Shown here: positions 1,898 through 26,794 of the stretch, piece after piece
How the letters are laid out: each line of letters begins with the position of its first letter
Numbering within the stretch: position 1 is the stretch's first letter
IMG/VR virus record: IMGVR_UViG_3300032217_000419
Span: 1-37,380 of that record
Origin: a virus
Reading direction: 5' to 3' (one strand)
DNA: 37,380 bases
The notes under the pieces: generated by a model
What the model was told of the DNA's origin: nothing
What the model saw: the letters and a program-made list of their open reading frames with translations, nothing else
Databases searched by the model: none
Translations under genes and position numbers: made by a program

Positions 1898-1899
1898 AG

Positions 1900-6111: not shown

Positions 6112-6151
6112 AAATGTTTATCTAAATATGTCACTATAGAAAAAAAACTTG

Positions 6152-6159
6152 TATAAATA
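6152..6159 (+). promoter_or_regulatory. T4-type late promoter ahead of gp8
   Basis: Exact TATAAATA, the T4 late promoter -10 element, sits in the 97-base gap between the gp7-position gene and gp8, 57 bases before the gp8 ATG. The gp8 ribosome site AAAAGGAG (6194-6200) lies between. In T4 this element is read by RNA polymerase carrying gp55 with gp33 and the sliding clamp; no -35 box is needed and none is evident. Confidence 0.75.
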
Positions 6160-6208
6160 AGTAAATGAAAAATAACTTCAAATGTAGCATCCAAAAGGAG
6201 AATCCCTC

Positions 6209-7518: not shown

Positions 7519-10500
7519 ATGGCAAATACTAATCCTGGTGGAATAGACTTAAACACCAGTCCATATTTTGATGATTATGACGAAGACAAAAAGTTTGTAA
7601 GGATCTTATATAGACCAGGTCGTGCGGTTCAAGCTAGAGAACTATCACAAGCACAAACTCTTCAACAAATACAAACTAGACGCTTTGCTGAATATTTTTT
7701 CAAGCAAGGCGCTCTAGTTAGTGGCTGCGAACAAAATTTAGATTTAAATTTAAGTTTTGTAAAACTTGAAAAATTATATAATGGATCTGAGGTTAATGTT
7801 GATAGTTTTAGTGGTAGTATAGTTTATGGAGCATCTAGTGGTATCAAAGCATATTGCGGATTAGTAACAGATATTGATGGTAATGATCCAAAAACTTTAT
7901 TTGTTAGCTATGCTACAAATGGAACTCAAGTTCTAACGACAAACGTTGCTCCATCAACATTACAGGTCGGAAACTTAATTAGATTTTCTACTGGTAATAC
8001 TGGAACAATTGAGGCTTGGTATACAGATCCTATTACTGGCACAAACAAAATTTATGTCTCCAACACTAGTGGAACATTGACAGCAACAACAGCAAATACG
8101 ACACTAAGTAATAGTAGTGATCAAGTAATTAATGTCACGTCGGTTGCAAATTATACTTCAAATACTAAATTTTCAAACTCAGAAACACTTTTCACAACAA
8201 ATGTAACTGGAAGATCATATGCAAGTGCTGCAACAACAGATGCTACAAGAAATGTAGTAGATGCAGGACTTTCGACAGAAACAGTTTACAACTATGGATC
8301 TAAGATCACAATTTCTGAAGGCATTGTTTATGTTGCAGATCACTTCGTTAAAAATTCGACACAAACAATTATTCTAGACAAATATACAAATACTCCATCA
8401 TATAAAGTTGGTTTAGTTCCTACTAAATCATTCGTTGATTATATTTCAGATCAATCACTTGTGGATAATGCACAGGGAACTCCAAACTATCAAGCACCTG
8501 GAGCAGATCGATTTAAAATCGATACAACTCTTACTAAAATTAGTTTAACTGAAACCACTGATGAAAATGAATTCGTCACTATTACAGAAATTGATGCTGG
8601 TGTTGCTAGAAAAAGAAAAACAATTAGCGTTGATAGTAAATTAGAAGATGTTTTAGCACAACGCACACAAGAAGAATCTGGCAACTATACTTTAGTTGAT
8701 CCGATTGTTACGGTTCGCGAACATCTATTAAACGGAACAAATGGTGGACGATATACATCTACCGAAGGCGGAAATACAAATTTACTTTTAGTTGAAGTCG
8801 ATCCATTTACAGCTTATGTGTCTGGATATAGAAATCAAATTATTGCAAAGACGCCAGTTGAAATTGAGAAGGGACTTAGTACATCTTATGTACAACAAAC
8901 TAAGACTCAAATCAACTATGGACAATATATTGAAGTTAGAGAATTGGTGGGCGCGTGGGATATCATGGAATCAAAGACGGTTGATTTATATGATATAGCA
9001 CAACAAGCTATTACAAATTTAGCACATTCTACGGCAACCGTAACTGGAAATAAATTAGGAACTGCTAGAGTTCGTTCTATCGAATATGTAAGTGGAACCA
9101 AGGGCACATCAGACGCAAGATATTATCTATACTTGTATGAAATCACAATGAATTCTGGAAAGAATTTTTCCGATGTTCGTTCCATTTATGATTCCACAAC
9201 TCCAAAGCGTTTTGCTGATATTGTCGTTACAACAGCGGGAGCTGTATTACAAGAAACATCTTTTAATACAATGATATTCCCACTACCGTATCAAGCAATT
9301 AAAACGATTAGAGATTCTTCACAAAATATTGAAACTGCTTTTAGATTTAAAAAGAAGTTTACGGTTTCATTCTCCTCTGGTGTTGCTACTGTTGCTACAG
9401 ACGTTGTTACTGAAACATTCGTTGGTACGGGAACATTAAATAGTACACAAAAAAATAATTATTACATGCTTATCGTTAACAATGCTGGAGCAAACGTAGA
9501 AACTTCTACATTGTCTGGAACTGTTACAATTGGCGCTGGATCTAACACAGTAACAGGATCTTCAACTTCATTTAATACTCAATTGAACGTTGGCGATTTA
9601 ATTAAAGTTAATAGTTTAACTAGACAAATTGCATCTATTGCAAATGCAACTTCGTTAATATTAACATCTACACATACAACTGGATCAACGGCAAACACAT
9701 TTACTAAAGTTATTCCATCTGGTACAGTTTTATCTCTTTCAGCAAATGGCGGTAAAGGAAGTACAAGAAGCGTAACAATTTCTTCTCCTGGAACTGCATC
9801 AATCGATGTTCAAGAGAATGCAACATTCACTGCGGACATTATTGTTTCGATGGATCGTTCTAGTGCAAAAGAGAAAATTAAAACTTTAAATTATGCAACT
9901 CAAGCAAACATTAATCCAAACACACATATCAATGGAATCTCTGGTCCATTCGGTCTAGGATATGGCGATATCTATCAATTAAGAGCAGTATATCAATCGT
10001 CTTCTTTTTCTGTTGCAGCATCAACATCAAATACAAATGTCACATCGTATTATACATTAGATAATGGACAAAGGGATTATGCATACGAGCATGGAACAAT
10101 TAAACCAATCGCTGGTTATGTTCCTACTGGTAGATTGTTAGCAGTTTTTGATAATTTCACTCATGATACATCACAGGGTGTAGGATATGCTTCTATCGAT
10201 TCATATCCAATTAGTGATACGACAACATCAAATACAACGATCACTACTTCAAATATTCCAAACTTTACAAGTCCAATAACTAAGACATTCTATAAGTTGC
10301 GTGACTGTATTGATTTTAGACCAATCAAAACAGCAAATACATCTTTGAATCCTATTGATGTTGGAACGTATCAAGTTCCGACGTTCGGACTTCGTATTCC
10401 TGAATCCGGTTCAGATTTCGACTCCGATCTAATTTACTACAAGGGTAGAGTTTCTAAAGTATACATTAATAATCGTGGTGTATTTGGTATCAATGATGGA

Positions 10501-13500
10501 GTTCCCGTTCAAGCTGGAAATCAGAGAGCTGAGTCTCCGCCAACAAAACCAGATACATTAGAAATTGCTGAATTAATTATTCCGCCATATCCGTCTGCGC
10601 CATCAGATGTTAAAATTAGATTGTTGAAAAACAAACGATTTACAATGCGCGATGTTGCAAAACTAAATGAAAGGGTTGAACGACTAGAATATTTTACATC
10701 ACTAAGTTTCTTAGAAAAACAAGCTACAGATACAACTGAGCTAGATGCTGATGGTATTGATAGATTTAAGAACGGCATCGTTGTTGATCCATTTACAGGA
10801 TGGGCAGTTGCATCAACATCAACTGACGGTAAAGATTGTTCTATCGATAAGAAGAATAAATTTTTAACTTGTTTACAAGACAATTCAAATACTGTTGGTG
10901 TTCGTTATGTAAGCGCAACATCAACAACAGTTTTAAATAATGGTAACAAAATTATGTTGCCGTTTACTGAAGTTGAAGCACCAGGATTAAAGCAACAATA
11001 TGCTTCTAAGCAGTTAAGGCTTGCAGAAGAACTAAACTTTGTTTGGACTGGCGAATTGAGTGCAATGCCATTTACTGATAACTTCTTTGATACAATAAAT
11101 GATCCAGACAAAGCTGTAGTATACAATGACGATCAGGGTGCAGACAACTGGAAAGCATTAACTAATGCTTGGAATACAGAAGTTGCACCTTTAAATCAAA
11201 AATGGCTTGGTGGTACACAACAAACCACAATTCAAGCTGGAACAAATCAAACAACGCAAGTTGGCAATTTCAATGTTACTACAGCATTGCAACAAACTAC
11301 ACAAATTGCATACAATCAATTAGCTGCTGGTAATCAAACAACCGCATCGACACAAGATGTTAAATTTGATCGTGTTGTTCAAGTTGAAGCAGCATTATGG
11401 ATGCGTAAAAGAGAATTTGTTATTCAAGCTAGAGGTTTAAAAAATAACTCAAGAGTTTATGCATTCTTTGATGGAGTTAATGTTACAGCAAATTGCTATC
11501 AAATCGAATTGATTGGTTCTTCTACTACTCTACAAACATTAAATTCTAAATTTGTAGCTAACACTACAACTGGAAATATTGAATTGGGAGATGAGAATGT
11601 ATCGTGGCGTGTAATTGCTGACGGAGCAAACACTGCACAACCATTGACAGTAAAGAACAATCAAATTTATTTGTTATTTGAAGTTCCATCTAAGACTTTC
11701 TACACAGGACAACGTGAATTTAAAGTAACAGATAGTCCTACAAACTCTGAAGGTACGACATTGACAAGTGCAAGAAATAATATTTTTGCACAAGGTATCA
11801 TTCAAAAGACTGGTACAGTTACAATCAATTCTCGCCCGTTTAATGTTTCATTTAATAATACAAATAACATTACTAACTTGGGAAGAAAAGTAGTATCGAC
11901 TCAGCGAGTTGAAGTTTCTAGTGTTCCTATTCCTCCACCTCCAGTTCGAAGTGTTGATCCATTATCGCAGAGTTTCTATGTTGATCCAGATACATATCCA
12001 AAAGGATTCTACTTAACATCTATTGATTTATATTTTAGAACAAAATCACAAGATAATAATAGAAATGTTACAGTAGAACTTCGCGAACTTGAAAATGGAT
12101 TTCCATCACCTCAGTTTGTTAGCGATGGAGATCTTGCAATTGTCAACAATAAAGATATTGCAATTAGTGAAGATGCTACATTGCCAACAAAATTTAGTTT
12201 TAAAAACCCAATCTATTTAAGTTCTGGTAATGATTATTGCTTTGCGGTTAAACCAGAAAACAATGATGCGGATTTTGCAATTTGGGTTGCCGAACTAGGT
12301 GCGATTGATGTAACGAATCCAAACAAACAAACAAGAATCGAACAAGCATATAATAGTGGTATGCTATACACTTCATCTAATGATAGAGCATGGACAGCAA
12401 AACAAAATATTGATATGAAATTTACAATGAGAATTGCTGAATTTGATACTACTGCGAAATATGCTTATTGGAATAATATTCCTGTTTCTACTGCATTCTC
12501 ATACGATGCATTAACTTCTGCTATTAGTGATCAAGTTCTTCCCGGAACGTCTATCACATATGAAATTAAAACTGCTGATTCTTCATATGCTGTAGATTCT
12601 GATTATACAACAATCAAAAATTATGAAAGGCTGATATCTCGTTCCAGAAAACAAATCTCTACAACTAGCGCAGAAACAACTAACGGATTTAAATCTTTAC
12701 AGTTGAGAGCAACATTAGCTACGACGAACAAGTATATTACTCCCTACATTGACGATGAGAATATTTTATTCCACTTTGATAAGAATCAAATTAATAATTC
12801 ATATCAAACAAGCGTTAGTGGAACGGTAACATATAGTTCTGGAAATAATATTGTTGTTGGTACTGGTACAAGTTTCACAACAGAAGTGTTTCCTGGCGAG
12901 TATGCAAAATTTGGTACAGAGTATCGTAAAGTTTCTTCGATTTCAAATAATACATATTTGACTGTGTTGAATAACTTTACAACAACGAATTCTGCAAGTC
13001 AAACAATGTCGATTCGTAATGAAGAAAATCCAGCAGGACCATATTCATCACAATCGAGATATATCACAAAAGTTATTACATTGAATGATGGATTTGAAGC
13101 ATCAGATTTAGTTGTTTATTTAAATGTCAATAGACCTCCAGGAACAACAATCAAAGTCTATTGTAAACTTTTAAATGAAAATGACACAGACGCATTTGAT
13201 GACAAATTCTATACAGCAATGAGTCTAGATGGAGTCGAAACTTTCTCTTTAAACTCTACAGAATATAAAGAAGAGAAATATATTATTCCAGCATCAATAA
13301 AAACTGGTGGATCTACTCTTTTATCCGGTAACGTTGCAATTTCAAACGTAAGTACAACAGTAACTGGAACATCAACAAGATTCATTCAAGATTTGAAGAT
13401 TGGAGATACAATTGCTGTAGGATCTGGTAGAACACAAAAGGTTGTTACAACAATTGCAAACAATACTTCATTGACTGTTGATTCAGTTTATTCTACAGTT

Positions 13501-13671
13501 ACAACTTCGCAAGATATTTTCAGGGTACTAAATAATGCAGTAACATATACTACTCCAGATGCAAGAATCTTTCAAGGATTTAAGTATTTCGCAATCAAGA
13601 TTGTGTTTCTTTCGAGTTCGCCAAGCTATTCAACAAAAGTTAAAAATTTAAGAGGAATTGCATTAGCATGA
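7519..13671 (+). CDS. Very large virion protein with DUF4815-like N-terminus
   Basis: 2050-residue structural protein, the largest in the window. The N-terminus (NPGGIDLNTSPYFDDYD, then ILYRPGRAVQARELSQAQTL at residues ~31-50, TRRFAEYFFKQGALVSG) has the hallmark of the DUF4815 family, found in baseplate-associated proteins of T4-like phages. The body is beta-rich. A module of about 68 residues, pattern SGTVTxxxxxxxVxGTxTxF then xxGDxIxV then NxTSLTV, occurs at about residues 665-735, 1768-1836 and 1936-2005. A Q/T-rich stretch (residues ~1235-1285) may be a linker, and VPIPPPPVRS near 1475 is a proline hinge. Gene position after gp8 suggests a gp9/gp10-like role holding fibres to the baseplate; this is inference. 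Its TGA overlaps the next start as ATGA. Confidence 0.75.
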   Translation: MANTNPGGIDLNTSPYFDDYDEDKKFVRILYRPGRAVQARELSQAQTLQQIQTRRFAEYFFKQGALVSGCEQNLDLNLSFVKLEKLYNGSEVNVDSFSGSIVYGASSGIKAYCGLVTDIDGNDPKTLFVSYATNGTQVLTTNVAPSTLQVGNLIRFSTGNTGTIEAWYTDPITGTNKIYVSNTSGTLTATTANTTLSNSSDQVINVTSVANYTSNTKFSNSETLFTTNVTGRSYASAATTDATRNVVDAGLSTETVYNYGSKITISEGIVYVADHFVKNSTQTIILDKYTNTPSYKVGLVPTKSFVDYISDQSLVDNAQGTPNYQAPGADRFKIDTTLTKISLTETTDENEFVTITEIDAGVARKRKTISVDSKLEDVLAQRTQEESGNYTLVDPIVTVREHLLNGTNGGRYTSTEGGNTNLLLVEVDPFTAYVSGYRNQIIAKTPVEIEKGLSTSYVQQTKTQINYGQYIEVRELVGAWDIMESKTVDLYDIAQQAITNLAHSTATVTGNKLGTARVRSIEYVSGTKGTSDARYYLYLYEITMNSGKNFSDVRSIYDSTTPKRFADIVVTTAGAVLQETSFNTMIFPLPYQAIKTIRDSSQNIETAFRFKKKFTVSFSSGVATVATDVVTETFVGTGTLNSTQKNNYYMLIVNNAGANVETSTLSGTVTIGAGSNTVTGSSTSFNTQLNVGDLIKVNSLTRQIASIANATSLILTSTHTTGSTANTFTKVIPSGTVLSLSANGGKGSTRSVTISSPGTASIDVQENATFTADIIVSMDRSSAKEKIKTLNYATQANINPNTHINGISGPFGLGYGDIYQLRAVYQSSSFSVAASTSNTNVTSYYTLDNGQRDYAYEHGTIKPIAGYVPTGRLLAVFDNFTHDTSQGVGYASIDSYPISDTTTSNTTITTSNIPNFTSPITKTFYKLRDCIDFRPIKTANTSLNPIDVGTYQVPTFGLRIPESGSDFDSDLIYYKGRVSKVYINNRGVFGINDGVPVQAGNQRAESPPTKPDTLEIAELIIPPYPSAPSDVKIRLLKNKRFTMRDVAKLNERVERLEYFTSLSFLEKQATDTTELDADGIDRFKNGIVVDPFTGWAVASTSTDGKDCSIDKKNKFLTCLQDNSNTVGVRYVSATSTTVLNNGNKIMLPFTEVEAPGLKQQYASKQLRLAEELNFVWTGELSAMPFTDNFFDTINDPDKAVVYNDDQGADNWKALTNAWNTEVAPLNQKWLGGTQQTTIQAGTNQTTQVGNFNVTTALQQTTQIAYNQLAAGNQTTASTQDVKFDRVVQVEAALWMRKREFVIQARGLKNNSRVYAFFDGVNVTANCYQIELIGSSTTLQTLNSKFVANTTTGNIELGDENVSWRVIADGANTAQPLTVKNNQIYLLFEVPSKTFYTGQREFKVTDSPTNSEGTTLTSARNNIFAQGIIQKTGTVTINSRPFNVSFNNTNNITNLGRKVVSTQRVEVSSVPIPPPPVRSVDPLSQSFYVDPDTYPKGFYLTSIDLYFRTKSQDNNRNVTVELRELENGFPSPQFVSDGDLAIVNNKDIAISEDATLPTKFSFKNPIYLSSGNDYCFAVKPENNDADFAIWVAELGAIDVTNPNKQTRIEQAYNSGMLYTSSNDRAWTAKQNIDMKFTMRIAEFDTTAKYAYWNNIPVSTAFSYDALTSAISDQVLPGTSITYEIKTADSSYAVDSDYTTIKNYERLISRSRKQISTTSAETTNGFKSLQLRATLATTNKYITPYIDDENILFHFDKNQINNSYQTSVSGTVTYSSGNNIVVGTGTSFTTEVFPGEYAKFGTEYRKVSSISNNTYLTVLNNFTTTNSASQTMSIRNEENPAGPYSSQSRYITKVITLNDGFEASDLVVYLNVNRPPGTTIKVYCKLLNENDTDAFDDKFYTAMSLDGVETFSLNSTEYKEEKYIIPASIKTGGSTLLSGNVAISNVSTTVTGTSTRFIQDLKIGDTIAVGSGRTQKVVTTIANNTSLTVDSVYSTVTTSQDIFRVLNNAVTYTTPDARIFQGFKYFAIKIVFLSSSPSYSTKVKNLRGIALA

Positions 13672-13922
13672 GTTATGTTTTAGAAAAGATTTCTATAATT
13701 GAACCTACTAATGGATTTACTGAAAGAGATGCGAATTCAAAAGCAATATTGAATACTGATGTAAATTCTCTTTTGAAATATAAAATTCAAAAAAGAAAAA
13801 TTTCTGATATAAATAAGAGTACAAATGAAATCGACTTGATTCGCGGAGAAATTGATGAAATTAAATCCGATCTAGGCGAAATCAAAAATCTATTGTTAAA
13901 AATTACTAAAGAGAGAGACTAA
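13668..13922 (+). CDS. Small coiled-coil protein at the head of the fibre cassette
   Basis: 84-residue protein translationally coupled to the DUF4815-like gene by an ATGA overlap. The C-terminal half (STNEIDLIRGEIDEIKSDLG, then EIKNLLLKITKERD) shows a heptad pattern of I/L with charged flanks and should form a short coiled coil. No family recognised. Position between the large baseplate-type protein and the first fibre gene suggests an adaptor or oligomerisation factor for fibres (inference). The last 38 coding bases, with the downstream ribosome site, recur ahead of two later fibre genes. A TATAAATA element lies inside the gene at 13808-13815. Confidence 0.75.
   Translation: MSYVLEKISIIEPTNGFTERDANSKAILNTDVNSLLKYKIQKRKISDINKSTNEIDLIRGEIDEIKSDLGEIKNLLLKITKERD
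13808..13815 (+). promoter_or_regulatory. Late-promoter octamer inside the coiled-coil gene
   Basis: Exact TATAAATA within coding sequence, 117 bases before the first fibre gene ATG (13925). The surrounding 17 bases (13799-13815) are identical to those around the intergenic late promoter at 20145-20152, which makes this a credible internal promoter for fibre gene 1 rather than a chance match. Confidence 0.5.
13878..13915 (+). repeat. Fibre-leader repeat, copy 1
   Basis: 38-base segment covering the end of the small coiled-coil gene and the AAAGAGAG ribosome site of fibre gene 1. It is identical to 20159-20196 and nearly identical to 22719-22756, both just before other fibre genes. Confidence 0.9.
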
Positions 13923-13924
13923 CT

Positions 13925-15643
13925 ATGACTATTTTACAAGTTCAATTGTCTAATACATTTAATGAATTTAGACAAACAGTAAATAATGTTAGCAATACGG
14001 TAAACGCATTTACTGATGGAACGACTGGAACTCCAGCAACGTTTTCAACTCAATCGTTGTTTGCCGCTGGCGTTGCGGCAAACACATTGAACGTTAGCAC
14101 ACTTACAGCGGGTAGAGTACCTTTTGTTGCGGCATCAGGATCAATTACTGATGCATCTGGACTCACATTCAATTCTTCTACTGCCGCTTTAACTGTTGCG
14201 GGAAATATAAAGTCTGGTTCAATTATTAATATGATTGCGGCTAACGGCGCAATTATGACTACCGGAAACACTATCACAGGTAACATGGTTGGTCGCCACA
14301 TTGAATCAATCGGTTCAGGCGAGTCATACTTAGCAGGCACAATTTGGCACAATAATCGTGGTGAAGATCCAGAACAGCACTTAGTTATTGGTATTGGTGA
14401 CATAGATGGTTCACATGATATCGCTATTGTTAATACAAACACTGGCGCAAATGGATATGCTGAGTTTATTGCATACTCAGCAACTGGTAATAGCGAAGAT
14501 GGTTGGATTTCAACTGGTGTTAATAGCCCAACATATAGTCAAGGTGCATATTCTATTACTGGTCCAGATGATGGTTATCTATTGTATGAACCAAAGAATG
14601 GTTCATCAGGAAATGGTAACTTAGTTATTGCTACTGGTGCTGGTGGTAGACAAAATCAAATCATTATTGGTGCTGGTGGTTTTGCTGATCCAGCAAATAA
14701 TCAACAGATGGTTATCACTCCAGGACAAAAAGTTGCGATCACTATCAATACACAATCTTCAAACACTACGACTGGTGCGCTTGTTGTTAACGGTGGTATT
14801 GGTCTTCTTGGTAACTTGAACGTTGGTGGTAACGTAGCAATTACAGGCACAATTACACTTGGTGGTGGTGGTAATACAGTTTCTACATCATCACTTTCTG
14901 TTGACAACCCAATGATTTTCTTGGGCGCAAACAATGCCGCCGATGTACTTGATTTGGGTTTAGTTGGTGAATACACATCTAGTGGTAAAAAATACGCTGG
15001 CCTTGTTCGTGACGCAAGCGATTCAGGTATATTCAAGTTGTTTGCAAATAACTCTACTAGACCCAATAACGCAGTTAATTTTTCAGATGCAAACAATGTA
15101 TACGGAACGTTACTCGTAGGTACACTTCGTGCAAATAGTGCTATATCATCTACAAGTAATACAACAGGCACATTGGTTGTAACTGGTGGTGTTGGTGTAA
15201 GTGGTAACGTTTACGCATCAAGTTTTACTGGAAATACTGGTGCAACAGTTTCATCGTTTACAACAGATCAAACATTCACTGGTGCAGCTAACACTTCAGT
15301 TCCTACAGCATGGGCAGTTAAGACATATGTTGACAACAACAGTGGCACACTATCTTGGTCAATTAAAACAACAGCAAATAACAATTATCTTGCAGTTGCT
15401 GGAGATAGTTTGATGTGCGACACATCAAATGGTTCATTTACAATCTTATTACCAGCATCACCAGCAAACAATTCTAGAGTTGTTGTAGCAGACGTTGCTG
15501 GAACATTTGGTACTCGTCCATTGATTATTAACAATAACGGCAACAAAGTTCAAGGCGCTAATAATATACTTTATCTTGACATGGTAAACGCAGGAATATC
15601 ATTGGTGTATGTTAATTCAACTTATGGGTGGAGAATAATCTAA
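13925..15643 (+). CDS. Tail fibre protein 1
   Basis: 572-residue fibre. The N-terminal motif LSNTFNEFRQTVNNVSNTVN (residues 8-27) is shared with the fibre genes at 20206 and 22766 and probably anchors the trimer to a common socket. Two 5-residue NTLxx/STLTA units (residues 53-62) precede GRVPFVAASGSITDASGLTF. The middle contains a Gly/Asn-rich beta region (residues 105-275), then TTGALVVNGGIGLLGNLNVG and a module around SLSVDNPMIFLGANNAADVL (residues ~319-395) that recurs in the other fibres. The C-terminal 100 residues (LSWSIKTTANNNYLAVAGD to YGWRII) form a compact tip of a type seen at the ends of many phage structural proteins, with LLPASP and NKVQG motifs. It starts 2 bases after the small coiled-coil gene; host receptor unknown. 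Confidence 0.8.
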   Translation: MTILQVQLSNTFNEFRQTVNNVSNTVNAFTDGTTGTPATFSTQSLFAAGVAANTLNVSTLTAGRVPFVAASGSITDASGLTFNSSTAALTVAGNIKSGSIINMIAANGAIMTTGNTITGNMVGRHIESIGSGESYLAGTIWHNNRGEDPEQHLVIGIGDIDGSHDIAIVNTNTGANGYAEFIAYSATGNSEDGWISTGVNSPTYSQGAYSITGPDDGYLLYEPKNGSSGNGNLVIATGAGGRQNQIIIGAGGFADPANNQQMVITPGQKVAITINTQSSNTTTGALVVNGGIGLLGNLNVGGNVAITGTITLGGGGNTVSTSSLSVDNPMIFLGANNAADVLDLGLVGEYTSSGKKYAGLVRDASDSGIFKLFANNSTRPNNAVNFSDANNVYGTLLVGTLRANSAISSTSNTTGTLVVTGGVGVSGNVYASSFTGNTGATVSSFTTDQTFTGAANTSVPTAWAVKTYVDNNSGTLSWSIKTTANNNYLAVAGDSLMCDTSNGSFTILLPASPANNSRVVVADVAGTFGTRPLIINNNGNKVQGANNILYLDMVNAGISLVYVNSTYGWRII

Positions 15644-15644
15644 A

Positions 15645-17003
15645 ATGGCAATTCAACTTACAACAATTTTTAGCGGTGGACGAGATTCTGGAGTTACTGG
15701 TTCTGGAAAAAGAGCATACTATGCAATGCTATCAAGAAATACATCTACCACATGGGGTGGAGCAACTTTTTACGATAGAAATGTTGTAGGACCTTTAATT
15801 AATTTAGGAATTATATATGATTATAATACTTATGGAGCATCACATGTAGTTTATAATAATACTTCGACATATCAGAATATTGAATCTATTTGGGCTCCAG
15901 TGTCAGCGACACAAAGTAACCCAACTACCACTGCATCAACTGCTTATGTAAACGCTACAAATGCAGCTGGTGAATTTGGAAACGCAATGATTGATGCATA
16001 TAGCGATGGCACAATTAATTGCATTTATGGAAGACAAGTTTCTGGTAATGTTAAATATTATTTGAATGCATGTGCTATCAATAGTGATCATTCTAATAAA
16101 AGAATTGTATATATTTTATATAATGGAGTCATTCGTGCTGTAGATAGATTATATGGTTCGTATAGCGTTCCGATGTCTAATACATCGGACTTTACAGTTT
16201 CTAGTTTGAATACTAATATGCAAGGATCTGCTTCATATCATGCTGGAAGAAAAGAATTAACAATTTTAAATTATGTCGCTACTGGCGGTTCTTTTAGTTG
16301 TTTTACATATCAAAACGTAGACTTTGATACATATCCTGATCCTTATGTTGCATTAAATAGACCTGGTGTGACAAGAGTTGATGCTACATTAAGTTTAGCT
16401 AGTAGTTGGGCAGTAAGTAATGCTGAATCTTTTTACAATTTAAAACCTATTACAACAGACAACGGAAGCGTTTATGTTTCTGTTTTCTTTACTCAAAATA
16501 ATTTTAGACTATATTCTTTCACAAGAAGTGGCACTAGTGCTATTACAGGAACTTTGATCACAACATTGGCTGGAACAACTTCTTATGGTTTGGACCAAGG
16601 TATAGCATATGGTCAAAGACAGATCACATCTAGAGATGGAACATCAGTAGCAACATTTTGTCCATATTATTATTATGGTTGTGGTATTTTATGCTATATG
16701 ATTGATAAAACAAATAATACATATACTACATATAGTTATAATGATACAGGCTTAGGCACACAATGTATGCCATATGGAGATTCTGGTTGGGTGTTTTATT
16801 ATGCTGGAAATGGATATGCTACAAACTATACTGGTGTACAGACTCTTGCTACATATGCAAAAAAAATCGGTGGAGGTCATGCTCAAATTCTAGCTGGTCA
16901 ATATTTTCCATATTTTACTGGACCAAATACAACAAATTATCCTGGGTTTACACAAGTGGTTGACTATGTACTACTTTCTGATAATGTTTATGGTCCCAAA
17001 TAA
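15645..17003 (+). CDS. Putative receptor-binding protein, propeller-like paralogue A
   Basis: 452-residue protein; I do not recognise the family. It begins 1 base after fibre 1 and is the first of three tandem paralogues. The N-terminus carries a shared GSGKRAYYAML motif (residues ~19-29). From residue ~120 the chain alternates beta-strand pairs at about 40-60 residue spacing: RIVYILYNGVIRAVDRLYGS, ELTILNYVATGGSFSCFTYQ, PITTDNGSVYVSVFF, RDGTSVATFCPYYYYG, CYMIDKTNNTYTTY, GDSGWVFYYAGNGY. That pattern suggests a beta-propeller. No catalytic motif, signal peptide or membrane segment is seen. Aromatic (Y/F/W) and Asn-rich composition suits carbohydrate binding. Residues ~48-105 and the last ~60 vary most between paralogues. 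Role as adhesin or fibre tip is inferred from context. Confidence 0.7.
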   Translation: MAIQLTTIFSGGRDSGVTGSGKRAYYAMLSRNTSTTWGGATFYDRNVVGPLINLGIIYDYNTYGASHVVYNNTSTYQNIESIWAPVSATQSNPTTTASTAYVNATNAAGEFGNAMIDAYSDGTINCIYGRQVSGNVKYYLNACAINSDHSNKRIVYILYNGVIRAVDRLYGSYSVPMSNTSDFTVSSLNTNMQGSASYHAGRKELTILNYVATGGSFSCFTYQNVDFDTYPDPYVALNRPGVTRVDATLSLASSWAVSNAESFYNLKPITTDNGSVYVSVFFTQNNFRLYSFTRSGTSAITGTLITTLAGTTSYGLDQGIAYGQRQITSRDGTSVATFCPYYYYGCGILCYMIDKTNNTYTTYSYNDTGLGTQCMPYGDSGWVFYYAGNGYATNYTGVQTLATYAKKIGGGHAQILAGQYFPYFTGPNTTNYPGFTQVVDYVLLSDNVYGPK

Positions 17004-17024
17004 ATTGAATGAGAATATTCTAAA

Positions 17025-18389
17025 ATGCCACAAATAACATCACTCTCATCAAATTTTCCCACACTTAAAGACTCTGGAATTACTGGTTCTGGAAAAAGAG
17101 CATACTATGCAATGCTATCAAGAAATACATCTACCGTATGGCATGGAGCTGCTTTTTACGATAGATCATTTCGTAGTGTTTTTAATACTGGTTCTACGGG
17201 AGCCTCTTCGGTATTGGGCCCAAGTCAAATAGTTTATAATCATACTTCGACATATCAGCATAGAGAATCTATTTGGGAATCTGTAGCTTCAACAGCATCC
17301 CCTCCAAATCAAAGCGGAACTAGTAATTATGTAAACTCTACAAATGCAGCTGGTGAATTTGGAAACGCAATGATTGATGCATATAGTGATGGTACAATTA
17401 ATAACATTTATGGAAGACAATACGGTAATGGTAAACATATCTCGAATGCATGTGCTATCAATAGTGATCATTTAAATAAAAGAATTGTATATATTTTATA
17501 TAATGGAAATATTTTTGCTGTAGATAGATTATATGGTTCGTATAATAGTTGTATGGAAAATACTGGATCTTTTGCAGTTTCTAGTTTGAATACTAATATG
17601 CAAGGATCTGCTTCATATCATAGAGCAAGAAAAGAATTAACAATTTTAAATTATGTCGCTACTGGCGGTTCTTTTAATTGTTTTACATATCAAAACGTAG
17701 ACTTTGATACATATCCTGATCCTTACATCGCATTAAATAGACCTGGCGTGACAAGAGTTGATGCTACATTAAGTTTAGCTAGTAATTGGGCAGTAAATAA
17801 TAGTGAATCTTATTATAATTTAAAACCTATTACAACAGATAATGGAAACGTCTATGTTTCTGTTTTCTTTACTCAAAATAATTTTAGTTTATATAGATTT
17901 ACGAGAAGTGGTACTAGTGCTATTACTGGCACTTATATTACTAATCAATCTGTAACAACTTCTTACGGTTTAGACCAAGCTATTAACTATGGTCAAAGAC
18001 AAATTACATCTAGAGATGGAACATCAGTAGCAACATTTTGTCCATATTATTATTATGGTTGTGGTGTTAGATGCTATATGATCGATAAAACAAATAATAC
18101 ATATACTGCATATGGCAATGCTGACACCAGTTATGGTATACAATGTATGCCATATGAAGATAATGGTTGGGTGTTTTATTATGCTGGAAACACCTATCCT
18201 GCATCCTATAATGGTGGATATATGATTGGATCTTATACTAGAATACCGACTGGTGGGCATAGATCGGATACAATTGTTTCGGGGGGTTATTTTCCATATT
18301 TTACTATACCAAATACAACAAATTATCCAGGATTTACACAAGTAGTTGACTATGTACTACTTTCCGATAATGTTTATGGTCCAAAATGA
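17025..18389 (+). CDS. Putative receptor-binding protein, propeller-like paralogue B
   Basis: 454-residue second member of the tandem family. It shares a 55-base identical run with paralogue A near the start (17081-17135 versus 15695-15749, encoding the GSGKRAYYAMLSRNT region) and the A-type C-terminus NTTNYPGFTQVVDYVLLSDN. The middle and latter parts contain runs closest to paralogue C (17598-17649 is identical to 18985-19036; the GVRCYMIDKTNNTYTAYGNA segment is C-like). It therefore looks like a mosaic. Distinct residues occur at ~45-105 and in the loop GSYTRIPTGGHRSDTIVSGG near residue 405. The sequence before its ATG, gagaatattctaaaatg, matches 16 of 17 bases ahead of paralogue A. Function as for paralogue A. 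Confidence 0.7.
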   Translation: MPQITSLSSNFPTLKDSGITGSGKRAYYAMLSRNTSTVWHGAAFYDRSFRSVFNTGSTGASSVLGPSQIVYNHTSTYQHRESIWESVASTASPPNQSGTSNYVNSTNAAGEFGNAMIDAYSDGTINNIYGRQYGNGKHISNACAINSDHLNKRIVYILYNGNIFAVDRLYGSYNSCMENTGSFAVSSLNTNMQGSASYHRARKELTILNYVATGGSFNCFTYQNVDFDTYPDPYIALNRPGVTRVDATLSLASNWAVNNSESYYNLKPITTDNGNVYVSVFFTQNNFSLYRFTRSGTSAITGTYITNQSVTTSYGLDQAINYGQRQITSRDGTSVATFCPYYYYGCGVRCYMIDKTNNTYTAYGNADTSYGIQCMPYEDNGWVFYYAGNTYPASYNGGYMIGSYTRIPTGGHRSDTIVSGGYFPYFTIPNTTNYPGFTQVVDYVLLSDNVYGPK

Positions 18390-18417
18390 TTCTTAAAATA
18401 AGAAAAGGATAAATTAA

Positions 18418-19782
18418 ATGGCAAATCAAGTTTCAAATGTATTTTCTGGAGGTATTGATCCAGGCATAACGGGTTCTGGAAAAAGAGCATATTATTCATT
18501 ATGTTCTTATCAGACAACAAACAATAGTCCCGGTGTCGCCTTTTATGGACCAAATATGAATTCTGTGGTAAACGTTGGATATGAAAGTGGATATAATAAT
18601 TATGGACCATCTCATATTACATATATTAACGATTCTACAAATCAAGTTTCAGCTTGTATATTTTCTCCTGTTGTTAATAGTGTTAATCCAGTATCAACTA
18701 ACTCTGGTAATTATTTAAATGGAGTTAATCATGGCGGAGAATTTGGGCATGCTTTATACGACGCATATAGTGATGGTACAATTAATAATGTTAATTCAAG
18801 GATACTCGATAGTAGTGTTAAACATTATTTGAATTCATTTGCTATCAATAGCGATCATTTAAATAAAAGAATTGTATATATTTTAACTAGTGGAGTCATT
18901 CGTGCTGTAGATAGATTATATGGTTCACACTCATATTCTATGGCTGGTATGACAGACTTTACAGTTTCTAGTTTGACTAGTAGTATGCAAGGATCTGCTT
19001 CATATCATAGAGCAAGAAAAGAATTAACAATTTTAAGTTATGCCAGCTCGGGGGGATCATTCAATTGTTTTACATATCAAAACGTAGACTTTGATGCATA
19101 TCCTAGTCCAAGTGTTGCTCTTAGTAGACCAGAAGTTGTTCGTGTTGATGCTACATTAAGTTTAGCCAGTAATTGGCAAACAAATAATAATGAATCTTAT
19201 TATAATTTAAAACCTATTACAACAGATAATGGAAACGTCTATGTTTCTGTTTTCTTTAGTTCAACCGGCTTTTACTTATATAGATTTACAAGAAGTGGCA
19301 CAAGTGCTATTACAGGAACTTATATTGCTAATCAGGCTGTAACAACTTCTTATGGTCGAGATCAAGGTATAGCATTTGGTCAAAGACAAATTACATCTAG
19401 AGATGGAACATCAGTAGCAACATTTTGTCCATATTATTATTATGGTTCTGGTGTTAGATGCTATATGATCGATAAAACAAATAATACATATACTGCATAT
19501 GGGAATGCCGACACTACTAATGGTGTACAATGTATTCCATATGGTGATTCTAGTTGGATGTTTTATTATGCTGGAAATGGATATGCTGGTAACTATACTG
19601 GCGCATATATAATATCACAATATATAAAACAGGGTGGTGCAAGTGGAGGACATGTGAATCAAAATGGATGCTATTATATCCCATATTGGCCAGTAACAAA
19701 TACAACAAATTATCCAGGAATGGGACAAGTTGTTGACTATATGCTTTTACCTTCTCACTTGTTGGGTGCTAAAAACACTTAA
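18418..19782 (+). CDS. Putative receptor-binding protein, propeller-like paralogue C
   Basis: 454-residue third member, the most divergent. It keeps the N-terminal GSGKRAYY motif, the repeated blade-like strands (RIVYILTSGVIRAVDRLYGS, ELTILSYASSGGSFNCFTYQ, PITTDNGNVYVSVFF, RDGTSVATFCPYYYYG) and the NTTNYPG C-terminal motif, but residues 30-105 and the last 50 residues differ strongly from A and B. The ribosome site AGAAAAGGA lies just before ATG 18418, so unlike A and B it does not carry the copied leader. It is followed by a small chaperone-like gene and then a terminator, closing the operon. Confidence 0.7.
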   Translation: MANQVSNVFSGGIDPGITGSGKRAYYSLCSYQTTNNSPGVAFYGPNMNSVVNVGYESGYNNYGPSHITYINDSTNQVSACIFSPVVNSVNPVSTNSGNYLNGVNHGGEFGHALYDAYSDGTINNVNSRILDSSVKHYLNSFAINSDHLNKRIVYILTSGVIRAVDRLYGSHSYSMAGMTDFTVSSLTSSMQGSASYHRARKELTILSYASSGGSFNCFTYQNVDFDAYPSPSVALSRPEVVRVDATLSLASNWQTNNNESYYNLKPITTDNGNVYVSVFFSSTGFYLYRFTRSGTSAITGTYIANQAVTTSYGRDQGIAFGQRQITSRDGTSVATFCPYYYYGSGVRCYMIDKTNNTYTAYGNADTTNGVQCIPYGDSSWMFYYAGNGYAGNYTGAYIISQYIKQGGASGGHVNQNGCYYIPYWPVTNTTNYPGMGQVVDYMLLPSHLLGAKNT

Positions 19783-20072: not shown

Positions 20073-20092
20073 TATAGTATTATTTAACTAAG

Positions 20093-20119
20093 AAACCCAC
20101 CATCTTTGGTGGGTTTTTA
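20093..20119 (+). terminator. Rho-independent terminator after the adhesin array
   Basis: Perfect 10-bp stem (aaacccacca at 20093-20102 with tggtgggttt at 20107-20116), 4-base loop TCTT, then more T residues. It ends the unit holding fibre 1, the three paralogues and the small gene; a late promoter follows 26 bases later. Confidence 0.9.
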
Positions 20120-20144: not shown

Positions 20145-20152
20145 TATAAATA
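20145..20152 (+). promoter_or_regulatory. T4-type late promoter for fibre 2
   Basis: Exact TATAAATA, 61 bases before ATG 20206 and just after the terminator. The upstream bases (20136-20152) are identical to 13799-13815 inside the small coiled-coil gene, so this promoter probably arose by copying that segment. Confidence 0.8.
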
Positions 20153-20205: not shown

Positions 20206-21588
20206 ATGCCAATATCACAATTAGAGTTGACAAACACGTTCGACGAGTTTAGACTGACGGTAAACAATATTAGCAATACTGTAAATGCATTTGACACCAG
20301 CATTACTTCTACAACGTTAATTGCCGCAACTGTAACTGCAAACACGTTAGTAGCAAACACGTTAACATCAAATACGTTAGTATCAAATACGGCTGTATCA
20401 AATACGGCTGTATCAAATACTTTAACATCAAACACTTTAACATCAAACACTTTAGTAGCAAATACTTTAGTAGCAAATACGTTAACATCAAATACTTTAG
20501 TAGCAAATACTTTATCGGCAAATAATTTAACATCTGGTCGTGTCGCATTAATTGGCACTTCTGGTAAAATTCAAGATGACGCAGGAATAGCATATGATCC
20601 GACAACAGATGTTTTAACGCTTTCTGGAACTACAGATGCAACTTCACCTTTAAATGGAACACTAGTAGTTTCTGGTGGTGTTGGAATCGCAAAGAGTCTT
20701 TATGTTTCCGGAAACACATACATTACTGGAAATCTAACTATTTTTGGATCGAATACTGAACTTAGTACAACACAAATTAACATCAATGATCCGCTACTAC
20801 AATTAGCAAATAATAATACATCAGACTTAGTTGACATTGGTATCTTTGGTCAATACAATCAAGGTTCTGGTAATGTACATACTGGTCTTTTTAGAGATTC
20901 TTTAGACGATACTTGGAAACTATTTAAATCATATTCTGCTGAACCAACAACAAAGATTTCAACATCAGCAAACAATTTTGCATATGCAAATCTAGCTGTC
21001 GCATCATTGACTTCAAATGCTAATGGATCATTTGCTGGAACATTATCTGTTACTGGCAATACAACTTTTTCTAATACTCTTATATTAAATGGTAATTTTA
21101 ACGTAAATACAAATAAGTTTAATATCATATCAAGTTCTGGTAATACTACAATTGCTGGGACTTTAAATGTTTCTAATACAATAGCGTCTTCTAGTTCTAC
21201 GACTGGTGCATTGACAATTGGTGGTGGCGCAGGTATTGCGGGAAATGTGTACTCTGGAGGTTCTATTAATGACGTATATGGTAATTTGAGATCATTGCCG
21301 CCGAATGCACAGTCTACTTCATACATAGCAACAACAGCTGACATTGGTAGATTTATTAACACAACAGCAGGCGTAACTATTAATACTGGTGTGTTTGCTA
21401 TCGGCGATAACGTAACAATCTATAACAACTCAGCATCTTCAATTACCATCACCCAGGGTACTAGTGTTACATTGAGACAAGCGGGAACAACAAACACAGG
21501 CAATAGAACTCTTGCACAAAGAGGTGTATGTACTGTTTTATGTGTTGCTTCCGGAGAGTTTGTAATTAATGGCGCGGGATTAACATAA
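20206..21588 (+). CDS. Tail fibre protein 2 with 13-unit pentad stalk
   Basis: 460-residue fibre. The N-terminal motif LTNTFDEFRLTVNNISNTVN matches fibre 1. Residues 46-110 are 13 uninterrupted 5-residue repeats (NTLVA, NTLTS, NTLVS, NTAVS, NTLSA, NNLTS). Next comes GRVALIGTSGKIQDDAGIAY, the repeated motif PLNGTLVVSGGVGIAKSLYV, and the INDPLLQLANNNTSDLVDIG module (residues ~190-260). A second TTGALTIGGGAGIAGNVYSG block lies near 330. The C-terminal ~105 residues (RSLPPNAQSTSYIATTADIG to FVINGAGLT) form a short beta tip unlike that of fibre 3. It has its own late promoter and an AAAGAGAGTGAA ribosome region. Its TAA overlaps the next ATG by one base (TAATG), which suggests coupling to the adhesin downstream. 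Confidence 0.8.
   Translation: MPISQLELTNTFDEFRLTVNNISNTVNAFDTSITSTTLIAATVTANTLVANTLTSNTLVSNTAVSNTAVSNTLTSNTLTSNTLVANTLVANTLTSNTLVANTLSANNLTSGRVALIGTSGKIQDDAGIAYDPTTDVLTLSGTTDATSPLNGTLVVSGGVGIAKSLYVSGNTYITGNLTIFGSNTELSTTQININDPLLQLANNNTSDLVDIGIFGQYNQGSGNVHTGLFRDSLDDTWKLFKSYSAEPTTKISTSANNFAYANLAVASLTSNANGSFAGTLSVTGNTTFSNTLILNGNFNVNTNKFNIISSSGNTTIAGTLNVSNTIASSSSTTGALTIGGGAGIAGNVYSGGSINDVYGNLRSLPPNAQSTSYIATTADIGRFINTTAGVTINTGVFAIGDNVTIYNNSASSITITQGTSVTLRQAGTTNTGNRTLAQRGVCTVLCVASGEFVINGAGLT
20341..20535 (+). repeat. 15-bp minisatellite, 13 units (fibre 2 stalk)
   Basis: Thirteen in-frame 15-base units of form aat-acn-tta-(gta/aca)-(gca/tca), no indels, coding 5-residue repeats N-T-L-V/T-A/S. The single array begins at residue 46 and ends at the invariant GRV motif. 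Confidence 0.97.
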
Positions 21589-22673
21589 TGTCTGTTATAA
21601 ACATGATGATTGGTGGATCAGGCGCCACTGTTCCCGGTGTCCCAACAAGCGTAAGTGCTGTTGGTGCCGGAACGACATCTTTATTAGTTAGTTTTAGTGC
21701 TCCAGCAAATGATGGTGGTTCTGCAATTACTAGTTATACTGTATTTGTAAATGGTGGCAGTCCAGTTATAGGAGCTAGTTCTCCAATTAGTGTTAGTGGA
21801 TTAACTGCATCCACATCATATACGATTACAGTTTATGCGACAAATGCAATAGGAAATGGATCTCTATCATCTGGTGTTACGGGAACAACAAGTTCAAATT
21901 ATATTGGTACTGTTCTTTTTAGTTCTGCTAGACAATGGGACAGTTCAGCAGCCAATTACACTATTCCTGCGGGAACAAATTATATTAGAGTCAAGGTATG
22001 GGGATCTGGCGGAACAAATGCTGGATACTATAACAACCTTGATGATGGGAATGGTGGTGGTGGTGGATTTACAGACGCAATTATTTCCACAACTCCCGGA
22101 GAAACACTAAGAGTTGCTGTCGGCACACCCGGCAACAATGGTTCGGGATTCACAACTTTTTCAGGATATGCTGGTGGATTTTCTGGGATATTTAGAAGCG
22201 GTAGTCCTTTGGTTATGGCTGGTGGCGGGGGAGGTGGAGCCACTAATAGTAGTAGTCCTGGTGGCGCAGGAGGAGGATCTAGTGGTCAAGCATCTGCTAG
22301 TTCTGCTCAACCAGGCACTCAAAGTGGAGGCTGGTTACATTATTCTACCAATCCTTCAGGACAAGGCGAAGGTGGTGGTGGGGGCTATTATAGCGGTTCT
22401 GCACTGTGGTATAATGGCGGTGGTGGAGGCTCCGGGTTTATTGGTGGATCTGGCGTTAGTTCAGCAACAACCACAACTGGCAATTACAGAACACCAGCCG
22501 GAACGGGAGATTCGGAATATCCGGGAGGCAATATAGCATATGGTGGTACTGGATACGATGGCGCACCAATATACAATGGAGTAGGATCTGGATATATTAT
22601 AATGCATTGTTATGCAATTAATCCTGCGGGATTAGGAGTACCAAGTCCTAGAACTGTTCTCGCAACATATTAA
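21588..22673 (+). CDS. Adhesin with fibronectin III domain and glycine-rich domain
   Basis: 361-residue protein coupled to fibre 2. Residues ~14-101 are a fibronectin type III domain: PGVPTSVSAVGAGTTSLLVS, then APANDGGSAITSYTV and LTASTSYTITVYATNAIGNG. Residues ~114-160 start a second domain (YTIPAGTNYIRVKVWGSGGT) continuing with GGGGGFTDAIISTTPGETLR and VAVGTPG. This is a glycine-rich fold recurrent in phage adhesins and some receptor ectodomains. Residues ~205-320 hold glycine tracts (MAGGGGGGATN, GGGGGYYSG, NGGGGGSGFIGG, YPGGNIAYGGTGYDG), which recall the polyglycine loops of gp38-type adhesins of T-even phages, although there is no clear sequence match. Probably a tip protein or separate adhesin on fibre 2 (inference). 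Confidence 0.75.
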   Translation: MSVINMMIGGSGATVPGVPTSVSAVGAGTTSLLVSFSAPANDGGSAITSYTVFVNGGSPVIGASSPISVSGLTASTSYTITVYATNAIGNGSLSSGVTGTTSSNYIGTVLFSSARQWDSSAANYTIPAGTNYIRVKVWGSGGTNAGYYNNLDDGNGGGGGFTDAIISTTPGETLRVAVGTPGNNGSGFTTFSGYAGGFSGIFRSGSPLVMAGGGGGGATNSSSPGGAGGGSSGQASASSAQPGTQSGGWLHYSTNPSGQGEGGGGGYYSGSALWYNGGGGGSGFIGGSGVSSATTTTGNYRTPAGTGDSEYPGGNIAYGGTGYDGAPIYNGVGSGYIIMHCYAINPAGLGVPSPRTVLATY

Positions 22674-22765: not shown

Positions 22766-25138
22766 ATGCCCATTTTTATGAACGTAGCAGCTTCTAATAC
22801 ATTAGATGACTTTAGACAATCATACAATTCGACAGCGAATACATTAACGGATTTAACAAATACTCCGGTTGTAGCGGGTGTTTATCCAGTTAATCAAATT
22901 TACTCTGGAGTAGTAACATCAAATACGTTAGTAGCAAATAATTTATCGACAAATGCATTAACATCAAATACTTTATCAACAAATTTATTAACGTCAAACA
23001 CGTTAACATCAAGCATGTTAACAACAAATACTTTATTGACAAATTTATTAACGTCAAATACGTTAACATCAAATACGTTAACATCAAATACGTTAACGTC
23101 AAATACTTTATCGACAAATGCATTAACATCAAATACGTTAGTAGCAAACACGTTAACATCAAATACGATTGTAGCAAATACTTTATCGGCAAATAGTTTA
23201 ACATCTGGTCGTGTTGCGATTATTGGAACTAATGGTCTAATTCAAGATGACGCAGGAATAGCATATGATCCGACAACAGATGTTTTAACGCTTTCTGGAA
23301 CTATAGATTCCACTACACCCTTAAATGGAACACTAGTAGTTTCTGGTGGCGTTGGAATTAGTAAAAATTTAAGAGTTGCGGGAGACACATATGTTTCTGG
23401 AAACTTGATCATTTTAGGTTCAAACACAGAACTTAGTACAACACAAATTAACATCAATGATCCGCTACTACAATTAGCAAATAACAATACATCAGATTTA
23501 ATTGACATTGGTATTTTTGGACAATATAACTCTGGTGCAGCTAATCTACATTCTGGACTTTTTAGAGATGCTACAGACGGTGTTTGGAAACTATTTAAGT
23601 CATATTCTGCTGAACCAACAACAAAGATTTCAACATCAGCAAACAATTTTGCATATGCTGATTTAAACGTCAATTCATTAAAACTCTTAGGTGGTACAGC
23701 CAACGGAATAGCATACATAAACAGCTCCAACGTCCTGACCACTGGATCTGCGCTGACGTTTAATGGGGCGAACGTGGGTATTACGGGCACATTAGTTTCT
23801 GCGAATATTTCTGGCTCGACAGGCGCAACAATTTCATCATTCATTACCGATGGCACACTTAGTGCTAACAATAATACGACTGTTCCTACAACAGCGGCTG
23901 TTAGAGCGTATGTTGCTAGTAATATTGTCTCTGGTGGTTCAACATTTTCACTAACAATTAGTAATGCATTGGCATATACAACAATTAATCCAATACCAAG
24001 TGGATGGACACCAAGTAGCGGCCAAACTTATGCATACTCTGGTAGAGGAAAATATGGAACTAATGGAAATTGTTTTTTCCACAGTGCTGGCATGAGGACG
24101 TCCTCTCAATCTAGTATTGGCTTTAGATCATTTACTGTAAATCCTACTACTGGAGCAATTACAATAAACGCACAAACAAACGTGTTTTTGAATAATAGTA
24201 CATCGGTAGGCTTATCTACAACATGGATGCAGCAAGATGAACTTAGCGGAAAAACAATGTGGTTTGGTAATAGTGGCTGGAGTGGCACCTCAACAAATAG
24301 ATTTGGATATGCATGGGCAACTGTGGATGAAAGTGGCACTATTACTTCGAGTGGCTCAGCAGAAGATGCGATAAGTCATTATAGAAATGGGACAATGCGT
24401 TGTTTGGGTAGATCCGATCAGGGTGGCTGGTATGGAATGTCAAGTGGATATAATTATAACAACAGCAGCATTGCGGCGATCAATAGATGGAATTACACAG
24501 GAAGTTCACCATCATCTGTGGGCGCCGTTAACTACAGCTCCGACACATCAACAAGTTATCATGTAAATTTACATGGCCAATTGAATTTGAATGGATCGGC
24601 AGTTAACGTTGCTGGAATGGGATATTATAGAGTGAATAGTAGCACATATTATTTGCGTGTATATGATGCAACAATGAGCAACTTCACTGATCATAACACA
24701 AACCTACTATGGGGTTTCGGTGAGAATGCATTTCAATTGAGTAGTGGAGTTCTTATTCACTATTCGATTCAGGGAACATATGTATATACTGCATATAATA
24801 GCAGAACACTAGTCACCCCCTCTGGGATTCCTTCTTTTATGGATGGTCGAAATCAGAGCGCATCGATCTGTTGGATTGGACCAAACACTTGGATGGCGTC
24901 AACCGCCGACAGTCCAAATCAAAATTCATTTATTTGCTTTAGAATTGATCCGAGTACATATGCATTAACATATAGAAGACTTGAATTTGGAGGATTGGCA
25001 GCTTTTGAGGGGAGCAATTTGAGTGTATTTACATCTGGACCATCACAACAACATCTGGTTGTGATGTCAAATCTTTCGAATGGTTATGCATCAACTCTTG
25101 TATATAATAATCCATTTGCAACACTTTTCAATACTTAA
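22766..25138 (+). CDS. Tail fibre protein 3: 19-unit pentad stalk, propeller-like tip
   Basis: 790-residue fibre. The N-terminus has a diverged form of the shared anchor (SNTLDDFRQSYNSTANTLTD). Residues 53-147 are 19 five-residue repeats, followed by GRVAIIGTNGLIQDDAGIAY and a stem almost identical to fibre 2 (64-base identical run 23240-23303 versus 20569-20632) through residue ~310. A linker around GATISSFITDGTLSANNNTT (residues ~354-373) resembles one in fibre 1. The last ~390 residues are a new, aromatic- and Asn-rich beta domain with about seven strand blocks spaced 45-60 residues, for example MWFGNSGW, GGWYGMSSGYNYN, MGYYRVNSSTYYLRVYD, ICWIGPNTWMAS and HLVVMSNLSNGYAST. I read it as propeller-like, unrelated in detail to the 15645-19782 family. 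A terminator follows the stop. Confidence 0.8.
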   Translation: MPIFMNVAASNTLDDFRQSYNSTANTLTDLTNTPVVAGVYPVNQIYSGVVTSNTLVANNLSTNALTSNTLSTNLLTSNTLTSSMLTTNTLLTNLLTSNTLTSNTLTSNTLTSNTLSTNALTSNTLVANTLTSNTIVANTLSANSLTSGRVAIIGTNGLIQDDAGIAYDPTTDVLTLSGTIDSTTPLNGTLVVSGGVGISKNLRVAGDTYVSGNLIILGSNTELSTTQININDPLLQLANNNTSDLIDIGIFGQYNSGAANLHSGLFRDATDGVWKLFKSYSAEPTTKISTSANNFAYADLNVNSLKLLGGTANGIAYINSSNVLTTGSALTFNGANVGITGTLVSANISGSTGATISSFITDGTLSANNNTTVPTTAAVRAYVASNIVSGGSTFSLTISNALAYTTINPIPSGWTPSSGQTYAYSGRGKYGTNGNCFFHSAGMRTSSQSSIGFRSFTVNPTTGAITINAQTNVFLNNSTSVGLSTTWMQQDELSGKTMWFGNSGWSGTSTNRFGYAWATVDESGTITSSGSAEDAISHYRNGTMRCLGRSDQGGWYGMSSGYNYNNSSIAAINRWNYTGSSPSSVGAVNYSSDTSTSYHVNLHGQLNLNGSAVNVAGMGYYRVNSSTYYLRVYDATMSNFTDHNTNLLWGFGENAFQLSSGVLIHYSIQGTYVYTAYNSRTLVTPSGIPSFMDGRNQSASICWIGPNTWMASTADSPNQNSFICFRIDPSTYALTYRRLEFGGLAAFEGSNLSVFTSGPSQQHLVVMSNLSNGYASTLVYNNPFATLFNT
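22922..23206 (+). repeat. 15-bp minisatellite, 19 units (fibre 3 stalk)
   Basis: Nineteen in-frame 15-base units with no indels. The consensus peptide is NTLTS, with variants NTLVA, NALTS, NLLTS, NTLST and SMLTT. The same GRV motif follows as in fibres 1 and 2. Some units are identical neighbours (four NTLTS-type in 23057-23101), others have diverged. Confidence 0.97.
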
Positions 25139-26792: not shown

Positions 26793-26794
26793 TT

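Follow-up and report, generated by a model that had tools for sequence, protein, structure and literature searches.

Three tandem genes on a 37.4-kb stretch of DNA from a T4-like virus (the window, meaning the whole stretch analysed) are, judged by sequence, members of a new protein family unnamed in current libraries. We consider it reasonably likely that each product is a separate propeller adhesin carried on the fibre tips, and that the phage maintains the genes as a set of variants, with gene conversion acting on their scaffold.

All three tandem open reading frames (ORFs) are open and each starts with its own ATG. The array and its most variable part are as follows.
15645..17003, plus strand: propeller-like protein copy 1, 452 aa
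15780..15989, plus strand: variable patch near the N-terminus of copy 1 (residues ~46-115); copies 2 and 3 vary there too
17025..18389, plus strand: propeller-like protein copy 2, 454 aa, for which a structure was modelled with a predicted template modelling score (pTM) of 0.82
18418..19782, plus strand: propeller-like protein copy 3, 454 aa, which groups by its core with copies 1 and 2 and by its ends with the third or last copies of other viruses

The two outer copies show 74% and 63% protein identity to the middle copy (range for the array 63-74%), and both GSGKRAYY and RDGTSVATFCPYYYYG are invariant across all three. Divergence between the copies was observed at residues ~30-115 and ~400-436 and also at 128-142, and copy 3 ends in 12 residues unlike those of the other copies. 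An earlier note on this DNA had described three intact genes of 452-454 residues with a GSGKRAYY motif and a conserved core, diverging at ~30-105 and near the C-terminus; the ORFs and the alignment agree with that description and add the 128-142 stretch to it. Direct DNA repeats of ~100-300 nt with 63-95% identity recur every ~1385 nt across the array. An assembly artefact is ruled out by an independent contig (L006), in which the three-gene array recurs at ~65% protein identity to the window, and by another (L007) with at least two copies of the propeller-like gene.

The window copies matched no Pfam family, a profile of the propeller family found no PDB sequence at E<=1, and the PHROG search gave no confident match, the best (E 0.0094) being an 86-aa protein of unknown function, while the neighbouring genes match T4 baseplate, neck and tail families. 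The earlier statement that no named T4 protein is of this type is borne out by these searches. Membership of a known adhesin, enzyme, Kelch or WD40 family was rejected since there was no sequence match in Pfam, PHROGs or the PDB sequences. Relatives were found by iterated profile scans of IMG/VR together with tblastn. Homologues were observed in 18 IMG/VR contigs, not counting the window and a further contig that is identical to it across the array region, and among cultured phages only in AcaML1, an Acidithiobacillus prophage (tblastn). Their identity to copy 2 ranges from 66% down to ~26%, with the AcaML1 homologue, the hypothetical protein Gp52, at 26-29% (tblastn E 8e-14 to 8e-22). Two profile scans of ~85,000 bacterial and archaeal genomes, by a method that reaches only fairly close relatives, gave 48 and 9 pattern matches and no relatives, and a plasmid scan found no relative. 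Because no relative was seen in the bacterial and archaeal genomes, the family looks phage-borne.

The genes immediately around the array are an upstream fibre and a small downstream partner, and a terminator closes the unit, an arrangement which the earlier note had also reported.
13925..15643, plus strand: tail fibre, 572 aa, with a C-terminal tip domain common to fibres in L006, L010, L014, L036 and L049
19815..20072, plus strand: 85-aa partner gene
20091..20118, plus strand: intrinsic terminator closing the unit (12-pair stem with 5 G-C, T-rich tail)
20145..20152, plus strand: TATAAATA, a late-promoter motif of T4 type belonging to the next unit, which starts with a fibre at 20206

In every locus where the contig reaches it, the gene directly 5' of the propeller gene is of a fibre type, so that the propeller protein is encoded in a tail-fibre cluster beside a fibre, as expected of a tail-tip adhesin. 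One C-terminal domain (...LPASP...GWR(I/L)(I/V)) ends the upstream fibre in the window and in the five contigs listed above, and several of these tip-domain fibres carry CBM 5/12 repeats. Downstream, a homologue of the 85-aa partner was found directly 3' of the last propeller copy in all loci examined (20/20), including L049, L051 and L057, which lie outside the profile-building set and gave matches of E 2e-21 to 3e-18. A single partner gene is present per locus, whether the array has one, two or three copies. The only partner match was to phrog_25252 (function unknown), for a C-terminal extension in some members; this extra domain is carried by the partners at L015:7354-7827, L017:626-1093 and L004:7074-7526, while the T4-like partners are without it. 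The partner is a possible chaperone or adaptor.

This synteny extends over at least five phage lineages beyond that of the window, with contractile, long non-contractile and short tails. The T4-like group carrying the module comprises the window, L006, L007 and L008. In AcaML1, a P2-like myovirus with a contractile tail, the gene is flanked by Gp51 ('tail fiber-like') and Gp53 and lies upstream of sheath FI, and in L013, L015 and L016 a lambda-type central tail fibre J is found upstream of the module. Contigs L014, L049 and L057, as well as L017, have portals of the short-tailed kind, from which their tail type was inferred, and further module-bearing groups are L010 and L028/L030. Three copies were counted in the window and in L006 and two in L014 and in L049; L007 has two or more, and every other complete locus has a single one. 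The earlier proposal of a tail or receptor-binding locus is strongly supported by this synteny across unrelated phages, and the propeller-like proteins are very probably tail-associated. Because the protein and one partner gene recur in very different phages, the distribution suggests that the module is a widely traded device for host-cell recognition. In two groups the module adjoins a cassette of heme oxygenase (PF01126) and ferredoxin-dependent bilin reductase (PF05996), located directly 3' of the propeller-partner pair (L010:7634-8789 and L036:6687-7857); this hemO-bilin reductase cassette occurs in aquatic phages (PMC11480375).

DNA trees give different groupings of the copies for different parts of the gene. 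In the core (alignment columns 118-400) the copies group by virus, and a tree joining the four third copies was rejected (log-likelihood 130 lower, approximately unbiased test p-AU 1.2e-6). Trees of the C-terminus join the third copies from all four viruses (support 89/91), and those of the N-terminus join them for the three viruses having that part (support 77/82); at the N-terminus a grouping of the window's three copies was rejected (p 0.039). Support at the ends is moderate because the ends are short. The third copies of the four viruses also carry a common C-terminal tail, LLPxHxLGAKNT. Core synonymous divergence (dS) is 0.16-0.43 among the window copies compared with 0.7-1.3 between viruses, and when copy 3 of the window is set against copies 1 and 2 it rises from 0.25-0.43 in the core to 1.8-1.9 in the 30-115 patch. 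Exact DNA runs reach 71 bp between copies of one virus and at most 29 bp between same-position copies of the window and L006. The conflict between core and end trees, together with the jump in dS, points to a mosaic ancestry of the copies. The simplest account would be an old array in which the scaffold was repeatedly homogenised by inter-copy recombination, with the ends and patches escaping; the conserved core is, on these trees, kept alike by recombination between copies, a point which goes beyond the earlier note. The ratio of nonsynonymous to synonymous divergence (dN/dS) in the patches is ~0.4-1.1, and clear positive selection was rejected as this is not clearly above 1. A diversity-generating retroelement (DGR) was likewise rejected, since reverse transcriptase (PF00078) was absent from 11 records (the window and ten related ones, the records being fragments) while control genomes gave matches.

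AlphaFold modelled copy 2 with a pTM of 0.82 and a mean predicted local distance difference test score (pLDDT) of 74, and the L028 protein, which is 32% identical to copy 2, with a pTM of 0.79 and a mean pLDDT of 70. In both models about seven sheet units follow one another in the same order; 4-5 of them are clear four-stranded sheets, the earlier ones are less regular, and the last strand may close the ring. Some 25-30 residues precede the first strand and there is no long helix in either model. The best Foldseek matches of both were nearly all beta-propellers (lactonase-like, WD40, TolB, Kelch, sialidases and Photorhabdus lectins), with the phage phi11 receptor-binding protein (5EFV) among the matches of both; against BFVD they were mostly unnamed proteins. 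The structure search returned mainly propellers, the fold which the earlier note had supposed. A profile-profile comparison for a blade repeat in the sequence gave results no better than reversed or shuffled controls. Divergent propellers can be without a sequence-level blade repeat, so its absence does not exclude the fold. The two models support a beta-propeller fold, which is probable for the three proteins.

To locate the variation, strands were assigned to blades from the secondary structure of the model and entropy was calculated over nine close homologues. The N-terminal insert (46-110) was the most variable region of all, with a mean entropy of 1.59 against 0.73 in strands, and the inner strands A and B were observed to be conserved (0.54 and 0.49). 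Loops BC and DA, which sit on one face of propellers, were more variable than loops AB and CD (0.94 against 0.52; permutation p 0.0008, circular-shift p 0.038). In close relatives the models thus support a location of the variable residues mainly in the N-terminal insert and the loops of one predicted face. The clustering on one face which the earlier note had anticipated holds among these relatives for the loops, whereas the largest variable block is the N-terminal insert, which is modelled at low confidence. Buried variable residues were not seen, as judged from secondary structure.

In our preferred reading of a propeller adhesin on the fibre tip, the module would have three parts, namely a fibre with a C-terminal tip domain, a separately made propeller and a small partner protein which would help the propeller to fold or to dock on the fibre tip. 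The virion would then present propellers at the fibre ends, docked there by way of the tip, and the predicted face formed by the N-terminal insert and the BC and DA loops would touch the cell surface. Receptor binding by these proteins is a fairly probable role and the receptor would probably be a glycan. The phage would retain several copies with differing variable faces, used simultaneously or alternatively, while inter-copy recombination would keep the scaffold, and hence the docking surface, alike. It is somewhat doubtful that the separate copies bind different ligands; a widening of the host range by several variants, as the earlier note had proposed, is plausible.

Parts of this proposal have counterparts in known phages. 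The nearest working analogy is gp38, a separate polypeptide like the small tip adhesin envisaged here, and the gp37-38 gene order is also fibre then adhesin. In the T-even phages RB49 and S16, gp38 is a monomer attached at the tip of the gp37 fibre, where it recognises the receptor (PMC9569957). S16 gp38 has a polyglycine-rich recognition domain, whereas the window proteins are unrelated to it in sequence or fold (all-beta propeller-like models), occur in up to three copies and have a separate partner gene. The nearest structural analogy is Gp45 of Staphylococcus phage phi11 (5EFV), a beta-propeller tail protein thought to bind host surface sugars (PMC4901313, where the seven-bladed propeller of PhiKZ gp131C is also cited). 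Gp45 is a trimer with a coiled-coil stem, tower domains and a five-bladed propeller in one chain, whereas the window proteins have about one propeller per protein, are without stem, platform or tower and are encoded in tandem; phi11-type homology was not detected among PDB sequences with the family profile (E<=1). The window proteins are members of neither the gp38 nor the phi11 Gp45 family. Jumbo phage CBB has Kelch-type propellers with near-consecutive gene numbers (CBB_550, 552 and 554), one of which was found in virions (PMC5259590); these belong to the Kelch family, whereas the window proteins match no Kelch model in Pfam. The homologue AcaML1 Gp52 shares with the window the order fibre, propeller, partner and an upstream DUF4815 protein, and differs in being a single copy in a P2-like temperate phage whose partner has the extra phrog_25252 domain. 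DGR-diversified receptor-binding proteins such as Mtd and the tentaclins also combine a conserved scaffold with variable binding patches (PMC10743442), whereas in the window the variation is spread over tandem copies with homogenised cores and no reverse transcriptase was found.

Several observations weigh against the proposal of a propeller adhesin on the fibre tip. The Foldseek TM-scores are just 0.2-0.4, therefore the blade count and exact propeller class are not fixed by the models, whose mean pLDDT is 74 and 70; together with the missing sequence repeat, this leaves the propeller claim of the earlier note supported by two models and their matches, and not proven. The excess of variation in the BC and DA loops weakens when just the three copies are compared (p 0.07) and disappears in the widest (18-member) alignment, and the faces were assigned from secondary structure, not from coordinates. 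The C-terminal tip domain is missing upstream in AcaML1 and L015, where a ~110-aa fibre-type protein (103-118 aa, matching phrog_11338, tail fibre) is found instead. Pfam and PDB searches matched the 85-aa partner to no tail-fibre-assembly family, and a Tfa-type chaperone was rejected for the same reason. Furthermore, the Pfam, PHROG and PDB sequence searches gave no link to any proven receptor-binding protein.

These points leave room for other roles. The proteins might be structural decorations, such as fibre whiskers or baseplate caps, with no part in host choice, the copies then serving dosage or filling fixed places in a heteromer. The position-specific ends kept by the third copies would suit such fixed places; however, most variation lies in the insert and one face, a fixed heteromer is not required by relatives of which most have one copy and others two or three, and the family has been exchanged among unrelated tails, so that we regard this role as improbable. 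Slightly less probable again is that they are virion-bound enzymes (a propeller sialidase, lyase or other depolymerase) which degrade surface glycans and do not merely bind them. The Foldseek matches do include propeller sialidases, glycoside hydrolases and polysaccharide lyases, and polar and aromatic residues (NSDH, YYYYG, NTTNYP) are nearly invariant family-wide, but the matches include many non-enzyme propellers equally, no enzyme family was matched in Pfam, PHROGs or PDB sequences and no catalytic signature was identified.

The history of the array can also be read differently. If each array were an independent recent duplication in its virus, with no gene conversion and with the likeness of the third-copy ends due to convergence or chance, the core trees would group copies by virus as they do. 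The LLPxHxLGAKNT tail common to four third copies, their grouping at both termini and the roughly five-fold jump in dS of the same gene pair from core to patch make this history very unlikely. An extension of the gene-conversion account, which we think rather unlikely, is that the array is a receptor-binding diversity system free of reverse transcriptase, in which each virion or lineage would draw on two or three propeller adhesins with diverging faces, while recombination between the tandem copies would re-spread the scaffold and could shuffle faces between positions. By analogy, and with the same reserve, it could be regarded as a phage counterpart of antigenic variation by gene conversion, based on an adhesin module that travels between phages of every tail type.

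The family defined here, unnamed in the libraries, is tied to the tail-fibre locus in phages with contractile, long and short tails. Its two-gene signature of propeller and partner lets candidate host-recognition proteins of uncultured phages be found, and the conflict between core and end trees gives an opportunity to test whether gene conversion maintains an adhesin array where there is no DGR.

The other features of the window are given below.
83-7486: baseplate wedge proteins (PHROG matches)
7519..13671, plus strand: DUF4815 protein, 2050 aa (Pfam PF16075, E 2.5e-34)
13668..13922, plus strand: 84-aa small protein, first gene after DUF4815 (phrog_473, virion structural protein, E 2e-9)
20206-21588: second fibre, with tandem repeats in the shaft
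25231-27523: neck proteins and sheath stabiliser (PHROG matches)
27893: large terminase (PHROG match)
32138: tail tube protein (PHROG match)

The terminase shares ~50% identity with its counterparts in marine Kyanoviridae and cyanophages. In Melnitz-3 (Kyanoviridae) fibre genes fill the slot before the neck genes, and the array and fibre of the window lie in the same interval, which here holds the DUF4815 protein, the 84-aa protein, the 572-aa fibre, the three propeller-like genes, the 85-aa gene and the terminator. The DUF4815 protein is homologous to AcaML1 Gp48 (BLASTP 9e-17; PF16075 E 1.8e-189 for Gp48), which also lies 5' of the AcaML1 propeller gene, and at 2050 aa the window ORF is about twice the length of this relative.

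The second fibre unit follows the terminator. Its first protein has an N-terminal stretch and a middle domain in common with the 572-aa fibre, and many tandem SNTLVANTL-type repeats were observed in its shaft. Because of the common N-terminal motif, the two fibres may use the same attachment site. Adjoining the array region, a 361-aa protein (21588-22673) with a fibronectin type III domain (PF00041) and a glycine-rich domain (PF21722) is a second candidate adhesin. It is followed before the neck genes by a 790-aa ORF (22766-25138), for which there was no Pfam family and only a weak PHROG match. The motif TATAAATA occurs at 6152, 20145, 22705, 25197 and 29568, in each case beginning 34-61 nt 5' of a start codon as T4-type late promoters do; its total count in the window is not above chance, although its placement looks non-random. 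In addition, collagen-like Gly-X-Y repeats were found at 34640-35190 in a fibre-like gene which runs on toward the end of the window.

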